DNA of 64,000 nt from Bacteroidales bacterium. GTDB taxonomy: Bacteria > Bacteroidota > Bacteroidia > Bacteroidales > PUMT01. The notes under the pieces are model-generated. The model ran no database searches, was not told where the DNA came from, and worked only from the letters and a program-made list of their open reading frames with translations. Position 1 is the stretch's first letter. Every line of letters begins with the position of its first letter. The stretch is taken from assembly GCA_007132715.1 (NCBI GenBank), contig SLOE01000084.1:1-64000 (forward strand), written 5' to 3'. This document shows, in pieces, positions 56,779 to 63,785 of this stretch. The translations under genes and the position numbers were made by a program.

Positions 56779-57990
56779 CTACCAAAACCTGAATCCTGCG
56801 TTTATACCTGCCCAAACCCAGGTGTCAGCATGCCTGCTGCTAAACTCAAAGATATGGTATGGTGCAATCCTGGTTCCGTTGTTTCCTTCGCGGCCCTCTC
56901 TTATCACCTGAAAATTCAGTACAGGGCCTGCAAAAAACTGCCATCTGTCATCAAGATCTGCGGCATATGTTACCCGAAGCTGGTTCAGTACATTTACCCT
57001 GTCATATTCCCACCACCTTTTCTCCATAAGGTGATGCGAAATGATCTCAACATTCAGGTAACGGTCATCCCGGAGGTTAAACTCCGAACCAATACCGTAT
57101 CCGTAACTAATAACTGTATTATCCTGCAAAAATTGAGTTCCAAATGTTAAAATATTATAAAATTTTCTCACACCTGTCTTCAGCCCAATGCCAATGTTCA
57201 TGGCATCTCCTCCATACAATTCAACCTTCCTGTAACCGTCCCTTACAATACTTACCAGTCCGATCGGCAACCCGTCAACCGAGTCGGCAATATTCACAAG
57301 ACCTACCTGCACTCCCTTTACATTTCCGGCCACGTTAACGATTCCGGCTGCCTGTATACCCTCAACCTTGCCGGCCACATTTACAAATCCGGAGCCCTGA
57401 ACACCATCTACTTCCCCGGCAATTCCGGCAAAACCCGATATCTGTACGCCAGTGAGCTTCCCCCCGGTCACACTGCCAAACCCCGAAGCCTGAACACCTT
57501 CAAAGTTGCCCGAAGTAACCCCGGCAAAACCGCTGCCCTGCAGACCTCTTGCATTACCGTCAATAATATTGCCAAAACCGGCACCCTGAAGTACCCTGGC
57601 TTCGCCATTTACAACGTTCAGAAAGCCTGCTCCCTGTATTCCCTTAACGTTCGAACCGCTCACGTTAAGGAAACCTGAAAACTGCACTCCATCAACCTCT
57701 CCGCCTGTGATATTTCCAAATCCTGAAGCCTGTAGTCCGGTAACCGAATACCTGTTGATATTCAGGAATCCCCCGAATTCAATTCCGTCAACACCTCCTG
57801 TGACTCCCCCGAACAGATTCAGCGATACATTGTAAACATAGTTATGGCTGTAGGCACCCTCTGTGCCGACAAGGGGGAAAACACTTAACTGAAAGGGCCT
57901 GGTTTCAGGAACCTCGTCATTCTGCGCGCTCACAGGGCCGGCTGTTACAATAAAGCAAACCAGGATAGAGGCAAAAACGTTCTTCTTCAT
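56779..57990 (-). CDS. LA_2272-type surface repeat protein with beta-barrel-like C-terminus
   Basis: A 403-residue exported protein with a signal peptide (residues 1-22, ending PVSAQ). Residues about 68-252 are twelve repeats of the pattern G-[VIL]-Q-x-[SA]-G-F-x-N-[VI]-x-G-x. The first seven are 16 residues, the next three 15, and the last two 14; a weak repeat precedes them (52-67). Such Gly-rich units suggest a beta-helix or beta-roll. The C-terminal 150 residues (from about 253) alternate aromatic and polar residues (TFGTQFLQDNTVISYGYGIG) and end GFRFW, as outer-membrane barrels do. LA_2272 is a family name from Leptospira; a role is not established. No obvious operon partner; convergent with hydF. 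Confidence 0.8.
   Translation of the reverse strand: MKKNVFASILVCFIVTAGPVSAQNDEVPETRPFQLSVFPLVGTEGAYSHNYVYNVSLNLFGGVTGGVDGIEFGGFLNINRYSVTGLQASGFGNITGGEVDGVQFSGFLNVSGSNVKGIQGAGFLNVVNGEARVLQGAGFGNIIDGNARGLQGSGFAGVTSGNFEGVQASGFGSVTGGKLTGVQISGFAGIAGEVDGVQGSGFVNVAGKVEGIQAAGIVNVAGNVKGVQVGLVNIADSVDGLPIGLVSIVRDGYRKVELYGGDAMNIGIGLKTGVRKFYNILTFGTQFLQDNTVISYGYGIGSEFNLRDDRYLNVEIISHHLMEKRWWEYDRVNVLNQLRVTYAADLDDRWQFFAGPVLNFQVIREGREGNNGTRIAPYHIFEFSSRHADTWVWAGINAGFRFW
57235..57789 (-). repeat. Coding repeats with stepped period (16, 15, 14 codons)
   Basis: Twelve units in residues 68-252 of the surface repeat protein: 7 x 16, 3 x 15 and 2 x 14 codons. The protein units are similar, not the DNA copies, so this is an old array and not a recent slippage product. 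Confidence 0.85.
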
Positions 57991-58190: not shown

Positions 58191-59720
58191 TCAGAACCTG
58201 AAATAGATAAATGGCTGCGTTTCGGCCGACCGTACCTGGTATATTAGAAATACAATCAAAACGGCTGCCGCAATCTTGATAAGAAGATGTGACCTTATGA
58301 ATGCGCCCCTGTAATACTCCTTCAGCCTTGCCGGAAGCCAGTGTATGATCATAGCAAGCGCCATAAGCAAAAAGACGTTTCTGTGAGCAATGGTCATTCC
58401 GGGAACCAGGTCGCCTCCGAAACTGCTGAGCATCTGCGAAACCATTGCATTCACCTCATACATGCCTTCAGCCCTGAAAAAGAGCCAGGCGAAAGAGACA
58501 AACTGGAATGTGATGAAAACCGAAAGGAATTTCCTCAAACCCGGCATGCGCCTTCCTGTTCCGCTGCCGGGGAATATACCCTGCCACGCCTTATGAACGG
58601 CAAGTGCAACACCGTGAAGCCCGCCCCACAGGATGAACCTCAGATCTGCGCCATGCCACAATCCGCCCAGCAGCATAGTCACTATCAGGTTGGCATACCT
58701 GCGTAGCAAGCCTTTCCGGCTTCCCCCGAGAGGGATATAGAGATAATCCCTCAACCATGTGGATAACGAAATGTGCCACCTTCTCCAGAAGTCTGTTATG
58801 TTAACTGCCTTGTAAGGTGAGTTGAAGTTAACCGGAAGCCTGAAGCCCAAAAGCAGCGCCACTCCTATCGCAATATCGGTATAGCCCGAAAAATCACAGT
58901 ATATCTGCACCGAATACCCGTAAACAGCCATCATGTTCTCGAATCCCGAATATGCCAGCGGATTGTCAAACACCCTGTCAACATAATTCACCGAAATATA
59001 GTCGGATATCACCATCTTCTTTACCAGCCCGCTCAGCACCAGAAAAATTGCATGGCCCATCTCCTGCATTGTAAGTTTGAAGGAAGCATAAAGCTGGGGC
59101 ATGAATTCAGCCGCGCGTACTATAGGACCCGCCACAAGCTGGGGGAAGAATGAAACATAAAAACCGAAATCAATGATGTTACCCACCGGTCGGAGCTTGC
59201 CCCGGTACACATCGACAGTATAGCTGATTGTCTGAAAGGTGAAGAAGGATATTCCCACTGGCAGCACAATTACCGAGACATCCATGCTCCCTCCGGCCAG
59301 ACTGTTGTAAAGCAGCGATAAAAAATTGACAACTTCGAGATCGGTTCCGGCAACCCTGTTGACCAGTCCGGTCAGAAAATAGGCGTACTTGAAATATGCC
59401 AGCAGCCCTAAATTCACTGTTACGCTTGCTGCCAGCCACAATCGTTTCCGAAACCTGCTGCCTCCATTGAAAATCAGATGCCCCAGGGCAAAATCTGCTA
59501 TTGTTGAGAAGACCAGGAGCGAAAAGAAATAGCCGCCCGACTTGTAATAGAAGAAGAGACTCATCGCAAAGAGCCAGGCATTGCGCAGGGTGTTCTTTTT
59601 GTATACCAGGCTGTAACCCACGAGCAGTACCAGGAAGAAGCCCCAGAAATAGAGGCGTGTAAAAAGCATGGGTGTCTCTTCCGAATATTTTAAAATTCCA
59701 GGGAAAAGGTCCATCTGCAT
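58191..59720 (-). CDS. MBOAT-family O-acyltransferase (AlgI/PatA-like)
   Basis: A 509-residue polytopic membrane protein with about eleven hydrophobic segments. The MBOAT core shows [23 protein letters not shown], the [15 protein letters not shown] segment, [32 protein letters not shown] and the catalytic His in [21 protein letters not shown]. These match AlgI (alginate) and PatA (peptidoglycan) O-acetyltransferases. It lies 17 bases downstream of the SGNH-domain gene, which would be its acyl-transferring partner, and close to a lytic transglycosylase. The acceptor glycan is not proved. Confidence 0.93.
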   Translation of the reverse strand: [509 protein letters not shown]

Positions 59721-59737
59721 AAAGGTTATGTCCTAAA

Positions 59738-61387
59738 TTAGTTACTCTCCAGCCACCTTTCGTACCCCTGCATTATGGCATCATAAAGCAGATCACCTAT
59801 AAGTGCCGAACCACGGAAGGTAAAATGAACATGGTCGGCCTGTCCGAGCGGCGGATCGGCATTCACCCACGATGGCATGGAATTCCTTCCCCCCATTGCC
59901 CCGTATAGATCCCAGAAAGCCGCGCCTGAACGGAAGGCGGCACGCCTCTGGGCATCCCTGATAAGACCTATGTTGGGAAAAGATTCATAATATCCTCCGG
60001 GTCTTGTCAACGACATGTCCGATACTCCGATTACAATTATTGAAATGTCATGTGAAAGTGACTTCAGGTAATTCAACTGCCTGACCAGTGAGTTCTCGTA
60101 CCATGTATAGTCATCGGCAATATCCGGAACAACATTTACACCAAACTGCAATATAAGTAGCCGGACGTTCAGCAACTCCATCATTTTTGCCATGGGTTCC
60201 CGGCTGCTCCTGGAAAATTCGAGTCCGCTGCTTCCCCTCATCGGCACATTGTCAATACCGACTCCCAGGTAATTGTCAACCGACACCGAAAAAACAGGGA
60301 GACTGCCCCGGCCGGCAAACCGGACAGTATACTCTGCACTTCCGTTCGGAAGCAACCACCTTGCAAACACAAGTGAATCGGACGGGAAGATCAGGTCTGC
60401 ATCAATTCTCTGCTCCCCCGACAGCAACTCGACAGTAAACGGGCTGCTGTTAAATCCTGTGAAAACTGTCAGCATCTCCATCTCACGTGAGCGGGCCGGG
60501 CCCAGTCCCGTTGGCCTGAGCGTAAAAGCCCCTTCAGTGTTGCCGCCGGTTACAGGCTCAAGCGAGCAGAACGACATCAGCAAACCGTACCGGAAGTCCT
60601 CCCTGCTCTCCCTGGCTCGCTCAAGCGGTGTGTACCTCACCCAGTTCCCGCCGGTCATTACCCTGACAGATGCATTGTGCGGTGCAGGTGAAATAACCGG
60701 GAACATACCGGTACCACCTCCTCCAAACCTGGCCTGCATCCTGTTTCTCAATGCGGAGGTGATCCTGTTGTTCTCAATCTGCGAATCGCCATAATGAATT
60801 ATCCTCATAGCACCCCCTCCTTCACCGGCATTATGGAGGTGGCTGAAAAAGGGATCAAGCACTTTGATCTCACCATCCGGCAACTCCAGCGGGAATATGA
60901 CCTCCCTTAGCCTGCCTTCATCAGCCGGGACAGGTTCTTCACCAGGAGGAGCAGGTTCTGTGTCAGTCATGGCATGTTCACCGTTAGCCGAAGCAGGTCT
61001 GCCGTCACCTGTCACATCATTAACTTCCGCCTTCTTTTCTGCTTCTGAAGCCGGCTGCAGTAATCCCTCATCCATTTCAGGTCCTGCATCAGGTCCGGCT
61101 GTATCCCTGACCGTGTCGACAACAGTATCCCTGCCCGTCCACTCCCCGCCTGCAAACTCTTCATCCGGCCGGTATCGTTCCGTTAAATGGGATATATCTG
61201 CATACTCAGGTATATCAGTTTGCAGTACCGATTCCAGGTTGGGAAACCTGAACCGGAAATCATCGCTGATCTTTATGCCTTCCGGCGGAAAAAACAGCGA
61301 TACAGCCGCAAGAACAATGAATACGGCAGAGATGAAAAGCAAGACGGTAAGTGGATTAACCTGGTTTTTCATACGACTGTTTGACAT
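59738..61387 (-). CDS. Membrane-anchored SGNH/GDSL-type hydrolase or acyltransferase
   Basis: A 549-residue protein with one N-terminal helix (LTVLLFISAVFIVLAAVSLFF, about 13-33), then an acidic disordered linker (about 70-170) and a periplasmic SGNH domain. Block I reads IIHYGDSQIENNR with the catalytic Ser; a later QADHVHFTFRG has the DxxH pair. The arrangement fits AlgX/AlgJ or PatB/OatA-type partners of MBOAT proteins, which transfer acetyl from the membrane enzyme to the glycan. The gene lies between the transglycosylase and the MBOAT gene, all minus strand. Confidence 0.85.
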   Translation of the reverse strand: MSNSRMKNQVNPLTVLLFISAVFIVLAAVSLFFPPEGIKISDDFRFRFPNLESVLQTDIPEYADISHLTERYRPDEEFAGGEWTGRDTVVDTVRDTAGPDAGPEMDEGLLQPASEAEKKAEVNDVTGDGRPASANGEHAMTDTEPAPPGEEPVPADEGRLREVIFPLELPDGEIKVLDPFFSHLHNAGEGGGAMRIIHYGDSQIENNRITSALRNRMQARFGGGGTGMFPVISPAPHNASVRVMTGGNWVRYTPLERARESREDFRYGLLMSFCSLEPVTGGNTEGAFTLRPTGLGPARSREMEMLTVFTGFNSSPFTVELLSGEQRIDADLIFPSDSLVFARWLLPNGSAEYTVRFAGRGSLPVFSVSVDNYLGVGIDNVPMRGSSGLEFSRSSREPMAKMMELLNVRLLILQFGVNVVPDIADDYTWYENSLVRQLNYLKSLSHDISIIVIGVSDMSLTRPGGYYESFPNIGLIRDAQRRAAFRSGAAFWDLYGAMGGRNSMPSWVNADPPLGQADHVHFTFRGSALIGDLLYDAIMQGYERWLESN

Positions 61388-61444
61388 AACCGCCCGTCAT
61401 TGCCGGCAAAGATGCGAGGAACCAGGTATCTGCAGTATACGCTC

Positions 61445-63076
61445 CTATCCTGCCGGTTTGATCCTGAGCTGCTGGCCCGGGTAGATCCGGTTGGCGTTAC
61501 TCAGACTGTTAAGCCTCAGTATGTCACGCTCACTAACTCCCGGGAACTGCCTCGCTATACCCCAAAGGGTATCTCCACGGCGAACCGTATAATAGAGAAA
61601 CTCTCCCGATTCGTCACTAACGACAGTAACATCAGCCCGGTTAGCTGATGGTGTCCTGCCGACACGTGCCTGTTTTGCTGCAAAGCTCAGATTGTTGACC
61701 TCATTATAATAATTGGTCTGATCTGAAGGCACGTATATTACAAGCCTCTGTCCTGTCCGTATAAGGTTGCCGCTTATACCGTTCCAGTGCCTCAGGTCGG
61801 ATACCCTGACATTGAACCATTGTGAAATAAATCCGAGATTATCGCCGCTTTTGACCGTATAATTCAACTGTGAGCGGCCTGCCGGCGGATCAGGCATCAC
61901 TCCGGGACGACCGGGTGCAACAACAAGGTTCTCCCGTCTCAGGTAATGATCTGCCCGGTACGCATAAACACTGTCGGCCAGGCCAACAAACCTGGTTGTC
62001 TCCCCTGCCGGCAGCCTTAAAGTAAAAGGTCTTTCATCTGCAGGGATCACATCGCGCCGGTACTGCGGGTTCATGTCCCTTATCATACTGACCGGAATAT
62101 CCAGTACCTCTGCAACCTGCATGAGATGAAGGTTCCTGTTAATAATCACAGTATCGGTAAAGAGGGGCAGTTCCAGGTCTGCCGGCCTCAGGGCATGCTC
62201 CGTGTAATAGTTCATTGCATATGTTGCAGCAATAAATGCAGGCACATAACCCCTTGTTTCCCTTGGCAGGAAATAGTAAATGCTCCAGTAATCCCTTGAG
62301 CCCCCTGCCCTTCTTATGGCCCTGTTAACATTACCCGGACCGCAGTTATAGGCGGCAAGGGCAAGTGTCCAGTCATTGTATATCTCAAACAGGTGTTTCA
62401 GGTACTTTGCGGCTGCATGTGTCGAAGCATACGGATCACGCCGCTCATCCACAAGTGAGTTCATTGTCAGGTTATACATCCTTGCCGTGCCGAACATAAA
62501 CTGCCAGATCCCCGTGGCACCGGCCCTTGATACAGCACGCGGATTGAGCGCAGATTCAACGACAGGCAGATACCTCAGTTCAAGCGGGATATCATAATAG
62601 TCCAGTATCTGCTCAAAGAGCGGAAAATAATACTCGGTCAGGGCAAGCATCACTTCCATCTGCTCCCTGCGGTTCACAGTATAGACATTGATATAGTTCC
62701 TTACAACATTGTTGAAGGAGAGATCAATTACAGACGGTAACCTTGCCAGCCTTTCTATATAAACCGAATCCGGGAAAGAGGGAATGACAAAATCAGAGCT
62801 GTCGCCAAGTGGCTCGGTCCTGATCCGGCGGGGAGCATTCCTGACGTACCAGAGGTTGAGCAGGCTGTCAAGATTGCTTTCAAAATCCAGTTCAACAGGA
62901 TCGGATATTTCAGGCATGGTCTCCTCTGCAGTGGCAATAATGCCTTCCGGCAGAGTGTCGTTTTCATGCACAGCGGTTCGACCAGGGAGAGTATCGGTTT
63001 CATCTCCCCGGGCAGTAAATGATATCAGAGAGAGAAATGCCAGGGTCGAACACAGGATGTATACAGGTCTTTTCAT
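61445..63076 (-). CDS. LysM-containing lytic transglycosylase (MltD-like)
   Basis: Cleaves the glycan strand between MurNAc and GlcNAc to form anhydro ends. The 543 residues have a signal peptide (YILCSTLAFLSLISFTARG), an SLT domain (about 165-290) with catalytic Glu in PVVESALNPRAVSRAGATGI and the later AYNCGPGNVNRA signature, and at least two LysM domains (VKSGDNLGFISQWFNVRVSDL and VRRGDTLWGIARQFPGVSE), with a weaker one between. It lies 31 bases downstream of the DUF5683 gene. A peptidoglycan acylation module next to a lytic transglycosylase would fit their known functional link. Confidence 0.94.
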   Translation of the reverse strand: MKRPVYILCSTLAFLSLISFTARGDETDTLPGRTAVHENDTLPEGIIATAEETMPEISDPVELDFESNLDSLLNLWYVRNAPRRIRTEPLGDSSDFVIPSFPDSVYIERLARLPSVIDLSFNNVVRNYINVYTVNRREQMEVMLALTEYYFPLFEQILDYYDIPLELRYLPVVESALNPRAVSRAGATGIWQFMFGTARMYNLTMNSLVDERRDPYASTHAAAKYLKHLFEIYNDWTLALAAYNCGPGNVNRAIRRAGGSRDYWSIYYFLPRETRGYVPAFIAATYAMNYYTEHALRPADLELPLFTDTVIINRNLHLMQVAEVLDIPVSMIRDMNPQYRRDVIPADERPFTLRLPAGETTRFVGLADSVYAYRADHYLRRENLVVAPGRPGVMPDPPAGRSQLNYTVKSGDNLGFISQWFNVRVSDLRHWNGISGNLIRTGQRLVIYVPSDQTNYYNEVNNLSFAAKQARVGRTPSANRADVTVVSDESGEFLYYTVRRGDTLWGIARQFPGVSERDILRLNSLSNANRIYPGQQLRIKPAG

Positions 63077-63099
63077 ATCAGGCTCACAATTATCTGCTG

Positions 63100-63107
63100 C
63101 AAATATA
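63100..63107 (-). promoter_or_regulatory. Candidate -7 element for the lytic transglycosylase gene
   Basis: On the minus strand TATATTTG fits TAnnTTTG; the ATG at 63076 follows by 23 bases. There is no clear -33 TTG, so the gene may also be read from the upstream operon. Confidence 0.35.
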
Positions 63108-63785
63108 TTAAAATTTCACACTGAACCTGACACCCATTCCGGGACTGAATCCCGGTTTTCCGGCAACCGGCTGACCGGGAAATGTCATAACGGGGCTGAC
63201 CTTCATCCCAAGATCCTCGCTCACATCGAACTCAAAAAAATGAGCATCTACGGTGGCCTCAATAATGTTGAGGGCGTAAAAGGCCGCGATCCAGATATAG
63301 GAGCGGTCACGCTGCCTGCGGTAGTAATCCCTGAACCTCTTCAGCACATCTTCGGTATACCTGAAATCACCTGCAAACTCATCTATTGTCTCCGGATTGC
63401 CGTCAATACGGAAACTATGCGCATTCCTGTATCTGGCATACTCATCATGGGTGAACATCGCATACCATGAGAGGGCGGCAAAACCGCCATATACAATAGG
63501 CACTTTCCAGTACCGGCGGTTATAAACCTGTCCAAGTCCGGGAAGAACCGCCGAATAGATAGCCGCTTTTCGCGGATCGGGAATAAACCGGTCATCACCT
63601 TCAAAAACGGTGACACCTGTATAAAGGGTGTCTTCCGGTGTCAGTGCTGCAGTTTGGGATCCGGGATCCGATCCTGCCACAAAGCCATCCTGTCCGGTTT
63701 GGCCGGCATAACCCTGATAGCCGGCCACAGTTGCAAGCAACAGTACCAGCTTGAAGATATATGAGTTTAGGGATCTTGTTATCAA
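63108..63785 (-). CDS. DUF5683 domain membrane protein
   Basis: A 225-residue protein with a signal-like start (IFKLVLLLATVAGYQGYAG) and the motif DPRKAAIYSAVLPGLGQVYNRRYWKVPIVYGG, a membrane-embedded Gly/Pro-rich region that defines DUF5683. A second hydrophobic tract (IWIAAFYALNIIEATVDAHFF) lies later. Function unknown. It follows the parB gene by 46 bases, the usual Bacteroidota order (parA-parB-DUF5683). Confidence 0.88.
   Translation of the reverse strand: MITRSLNSYIFKLVLLLATVAGYQGYAGQTGQDGFVAGSDPGSQTAALTPEDTLYTGVTVFEGDDRFIPDPRKAAIYSAVLPGLGQVYNRRYWKVPIVYGGFAALSWYAMFTHDEYARYRNAHSFRIDGNPETIDEFAGDFRYTEDVLKRFRDYYRRQRDRSYIWIAAFYALNIIEATVDAHFFEFDVSEDLGMKVSPVMTFPGQPVAGKPGFSPGMGVRFSVKF

Follow-up and report, generated by a model that had tools for sequence, protein, structure and literature searches.

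A repeat protein encoded in a Bacteroidales genome carries an array of coils that shorten in steps from 16 through 15 to 14 residues, and we think it probable that this order is an inherited, conserved C-terminal end module of its solenoid class, attached to a body that gains and loses 16-residue units. The ramp is not confined to the one gene in which it was noticed but is shared across the phylum by this solenoid class. Repeat proteins are usually described by a single period; here, one end is marked across the phylum by a conserved, ordered shift in period, which provides a simple rule for predicting the end of such solenoids from sequence, as well as a natural set for testing solenoid capping. 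It also gives a first handle on the function of an uncharacterized repeat family that is tied to sigma-FecR signaling operons. No paper on a stepped period in this repeat class was found in our literature search.

The Repeat Protein and Its Stepped Array

The window (i.e., the whole stretch of 64,000 nucleotides that was analyzed, contig SLOE01000084.1) encodes the repeat protein on the reverse strand (56779..57990) as an ORF of 403 amino acids, comprising a signal peptide, the repeat array, and a barrel-like tail, and a genome search identified no second copy of the gene in its genome. The probable signal peptide, as read from the sequence, covers aa 1–22 (MKKNVFASILVCFIVTAGPVSA; 57925..57990, reverse strand). 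It is followed by an N-terminal lead-in (aa 31–66; 57793..57900, reverse strand) that shows the conserved pattern PFQLSxxPxxGTxG...SxNxxxGxxGG in the alignment of homologues, where it is coil-like immediately before unit 1. The array, also on the reverse strand, then consists of seven 16-residue units with a Q-N spacing of 6 and an N-Q spacing of 10 (aa 67–178; 57457..57792), three 15-residue units with spacings of 6 and 9 (aa 179–223; 57322..57456), a 14-residue unit with spacings of 5 and 9 (aa 224–237; 57280..57321) within a match to NCBIfam NF047436 (aa 216–236), and a terminal unit with a Q-N spacing of 5 and no next unit to set its period (aa 238–251, VDGLPIGLVSIVRD; 57238..57279). Judged from this layout, the window protein is probably an exported outer-membrane protein, with a signal peptide, a lead-in, a beta-solenoid of about 12 coils, and a C-terminal barrel.

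Counted from aa 67, the start-to-start distances of the 12 units are 16 (seven times), 15 (three times), and 14 (once), ending in the terminal unit. The original prediction of seven repeats of 16 residues, three of 15, and two of 14 in order toward the C-terminus was therefore right in its order, with the second 14 assigned by likeness to the one that can be measured, since the terminal unit has no successor; the array is placed here at nt 57238–57792 (aa 67–251) rather than at 57235–57789. A self-comparison that makes no use of the motif gave a best lag of 16 at aa 67–178, of 15 at aa 163–223, and a mix of 15 and 14 at aa 194–253. The 7, 3, and 1 units that could be measured can be arranged in 1,320 ways, of which the sorted order is one; this count treats the repeats as exchangeable, which they truly are not. 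The G-[VIL]-Q-x-[SA]-G-F pattern had been assigned to every unit and is exact in only 7 of the 12, compared with 0.0015 exact motifs in shuffled arrays. Deviations include E for Q and G for S/A in unit 1, V for G in unit 5, and I for F in unit 10; in addition, the last two units lack the S/A residue of the motif and are shorter for that reason. No tandem repeat was detectable at the DNA level in the window array, and the units are therefore old.

Two one-residue deletions, which are separate and both lie close to the C-terminal end, account for the steps. Along the window array, the N-to-Q distance falls first, from 10 to 9, in the loop, and the Q-to-N distance falls afterwards, from 6 to 5, in the strand. 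Among homologue coils, those of 16 residues combine a Q-N spacing of 6 with an N-to-next-Q spacing of 10, those of 15 are mostly 6 + 9, and those of 14 are 5 + 9. Another route to losing one residue is seen in loci L022 and L115, in which a constant 15-residue period is built as 5 + 10; L022 has a weak match to pentapeptide models as well.

The repeat gene is flanked by HydF on one side and by MBOAT, GDSL, SLT-LysM, and DUF5683 genes on the other, the latter forming an upstream run in the order MBOAT, GDSL-like, SLT/LysM, and DUF5683 (window positions 58191–63785). This neighboring gene order is kept within the genus only, and MBOAT and GDSL genes were not found at the matching site in a relative (G007, locus L132). 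As the pair was not found there and synteny does not reach beyond the genus, an operon role with the upstream MBOAT-GDSL genes was rejected.

Conservation of the Short C-Terminal Coils in Bacteroidota

Relatives of the window protein are frequent in Bacteroidota, where a profile search found them in 66 of 294 genomes at the level of the order and in 114 of 393 at that of the phylum, and the loci compared here were taken from these genomes and from plasmid records. The main set comprised 64 Bacteroidota homologues with less than 45% identity and a barrel-like tail, and their arrays were cut into coils by a dynamic program with scores for the Q and N sites and no bias to any allowed spacing or position. 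The comparison of period order in homologues, proposed as a check with the original prediction, came out in its favor. The ordered change of period recurs phylum-wide in this set: in 59 of the 64 homologues, the final three coils are on average shorter than those of the body (means of 14.91 vs. 15.74; Wilcoxon 3e-11), the first coil has 16 residues in 56, and the last measured coil has 14 residues in 35 and 15 residues in 23, together 58 of 64. Strict stepping is found in 31 homologues, where about one would be expected in a like set with coil order shuffled within proteins. The other 33 are not strictly stepped, and exceptions include arrays that alternate as 16/15/16/15 (L043, L055), that are constant at 15 (L022, L115), or that keep 16 to the end (L067, L070, L072). 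The ramp is still present below 35% identity, and the next-to-last coil is the best conserved coil between proteins.

Solenoid proteins that lack a barrel (L127, L129, L182–L200) carry short VLPxINxHF-type tails and show a 16-15-14 ending. With coils cut by a re-trained version of the dynamic program, nearly all of the 23 loci in this barrel-less set (8 groups at less than 45% identity) end in a run of 16-residue coils, two to five coils of 15, and one or two of 14. Because the barrel-less proteins end alike, it is the end of the solenoid, and not the barrel, that the ramp accompanies. Mapped on a tree built from the tails, the total number of coils shows at least 40 changes, strict stepping shows 15, and the presence of two final coils of no more than 15 residues shows 5; these counts are rough, with many inner branches weakly supported. 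Set against 5 changes in the two short final coils, the 40 or more changes of coil number point to a body that varies and an end that is fixed.

Related loci were also sought in viral contigs, where none was confirmed; two gut records labeled Bacteriophage sp. (MT835586.1 and MT837802.1) encode relatives with 27–29% identity and may be host DNA. The matches of L129 to Cupriavidus CopB and Shewanella TraG were taken as chance.

A Proposed End Module and Its Alternatives

In this reading, the body is assembled from 16-residue coils, and its size is altered by their gain and loss. Over the final few coils, one residue is dropped in the loop from N to the next Q, and the Q-x-[SA]-G-F-x-N strand of the last two coils is one residue shorter as well. 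Closure of the solenoid core is the most likely task of the narrower coils, a capping role suggested by their position, and they most likely offer a fixed end to the next part of the protein, which would be the barrel in the window protein and the short tail in the barrel-less relatives.

The shared order might also come from descent alone. An ancestral array could by chance have contained blocks of 16-, 15-, and 14-residue coils that were inherited without any function, with tandem duplication keeping the runs of equal length. Consistent with this, all homologues share ancestry, so that their common orientation amounts to few events; duplication of neighboring coils creates runs, and a coil usually finds its best match elsewhere in the array to which it belongs. 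However, such a functionless ramp is unlikely given the imbalance in the tail tree between turnover of coil number and retention of the short last two coils, and given that the ramp persists at less than 35% identity and in proteins without a barrel. The barrel-less proteins also bear on the idea that the coils shorten in order to fit the following membrane barrel in width. Although short coils adjoin the barrel in nearly every barrel-bearing homologue, an equal ramp is present where no barrel follows (L129, L182, L185, L192, L197, and others), and an adaptor at the barrel junction is accordingly quite improbable.

The original prediction was of a surface array whose shrinking turns would give a tapering rod, and on this reading the taper itself would do the work. 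The ordered shrinkage on which it was based is real, but it removes only 2 residues out of 16, strict tapering is absent from many relatives, and a periplasmic N-terminal side of the array is indicated by the STN-bearing relatives in sigma-FecR operons. Strict stepping is lacking in about half of the homologues, and what is conserved is the set of short coils at the C-terminus; a rod whose taper does the work was not borne out, and we consider it very improbable.

Predicted Fold of the Array and Tail

Full-length AlphaFold modeling with the window protein and one relative gave a pLDDT of 44, which is too poor to use, and its fold matches were set aside. Modeling of aa 30–262 gave a mean pLDDT of 64, with values of 70–82 over most of the array and a mostly beta structure. 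The nearest solved folds to the array model were beta-helices, e.g., P22 tailspike and Ag43, none of them a significant match. The array of the window protein is likely a beta-solenoid, as had been proposed, the all-beta model and the beta-helical nearest folds speaking weakly in favor and the lack of a significant match against. It would have its solenoid class in common with pentapeptide and right-handed beta-helix proteins, which are weak nearest folds with no significant match in sequence or structure.

The tail (aa 252–403; 56782..57237, reverse strand), which ends in an aromatic residue, is probably a small outer-membrane beta-barrel. Among 11 homologous tails, 5 match the OMP_b-brl family (PF13505; best 4.8e-5), and F, Y, or W is the last residue in 41 of the 64 homologue tails. 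The window tail ends in FW and, searched by itself against Pfam, had no match.

Comparison with Known Repeat Proteins

The window protein is probably a divergent relative of the NCBIfam LA_2272/VC2662 repeat proteins of unknown function (NF047436, LA_2272 surface repeat; NF047437, VC2662). These families have GxQxG-type repeats in common with the window protein, and their unit of 14–15 residues matches its C-terminal coils (aa 216–236). By contrast, most window units have 16 residues, and the window protein has a barrel tail. NF047436 scored 21.6 bits against the window protein in hmmscan and 26.2 bits in the genome search, with a cut-off of 25, and its GxQxGxxN unit of about 14 residues fits only the last window coils, the other ten having 16 or 15 residues. 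NF047437, with a cut-off of 140 bits, gave no match to the window protein, and barrel-less relatives reach at most 84 bits. LA_2272 threads on pertactin (1dab) (PMC2387172), and VC2662 is uncharacterized, its deletion having left the phenotype of an ompU mutant unchanged (PMC10865864). Pfam, PHROGs, and PDB sequence searches with the window protein gave no useful match.

The solenoid of ice nucleation proteins likewise has 16-residue coils and joins a variable number of body coils to a near-fixed number of special C-terminal coils: the water-organizing coils vary in number, while the C-terminal R-coils are nearly fixed (PMC10727499). Unlike the coils described here, those C-terminal coils are marked by residue content (Arg) and not by length, and the likeness is one of analogy only, with no claim of homology. 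The window repeats contain no TxT ladder, and ice nucleation is not suggested.

STN-Bearing Relatives and the Location of the Array

Long homologues possess STN and CarboxypepD_reg domains N-terminal to the array. FecR is encoded directly upstream in 19 of 21 long STN-bearing loci, and a sigma factor as well in 18 of these 21. For short homologues without an STN neighbor, the window included, FecR was found in 0 of 29 loci; some flanks are short, and loci were chosen rather than random. STN domains of known transducers act in the periplasm. Because the array lies between the STN domain and the barrel, it is more likely periplasmic than surface-exposed in the long homologues, by analogy with these transducers. 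The description of the repeats as a surface array is thus not supported, given the periplasmic STN domain that precedes the array in long homologues and their FecR neighbors.

The STN domains of known transducers work with an anti-sigma factor (PMC11637429, PMC7186176). Compared with these FecA/FecR-type transducers, the long homologues alone are similar in having an STN domain on an outer-membrane protein beside sigma factor and FecR genes, and they differ in having a solenoid and a small barrel in place of the TonB plug and large barrel. The STN-solenoid-barrel proteins of sigma70-FecR operons may be outer-membrane signal transducers of an undescribed type. A broader proposal would combine this with the end module: coil length would be a conserved positional code, in which two ordered one-residue deletions label the C-terminus and determine where the stack ends or where its folding starts, with or without a barrel, and the STN-bearing relatives would be an undescribed signal transducer whose solenoid replaces the TonB plug. 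Taken jointly, these claims are tentative and rather doubtful.

The window protein differs from FecA/FecR-type transducers, and FecR signaling was rejected for it: a Pfam search found no STN domain in the protein, and FecR was detected neither in the neighborhood of the gene nor in its genome, which is 85% complete. As this genome has no FecR match, the context of the long homologues says nothing direct about the role of the window protein. By analogy with its STN-bearing relatives, minus the signaling domain, it may be a ligand-binding outer-membrane protein.

Operons in which sigma70 and FecR genes are followed by a gene for an STN, CarboxypepD_reg, solenoid, and barrel protein occur in many Bacteroidota (L142, L143, L144, L146–L151, L153–L161, L172) and often adjoin a short solenoid paralogue. 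On a Hymenobacter volaticus plasmid (L029, 1–4161), a sigma factor, FecR, a separate DUF4974/STN-like ORF, and a solenoid gene lie in a row.
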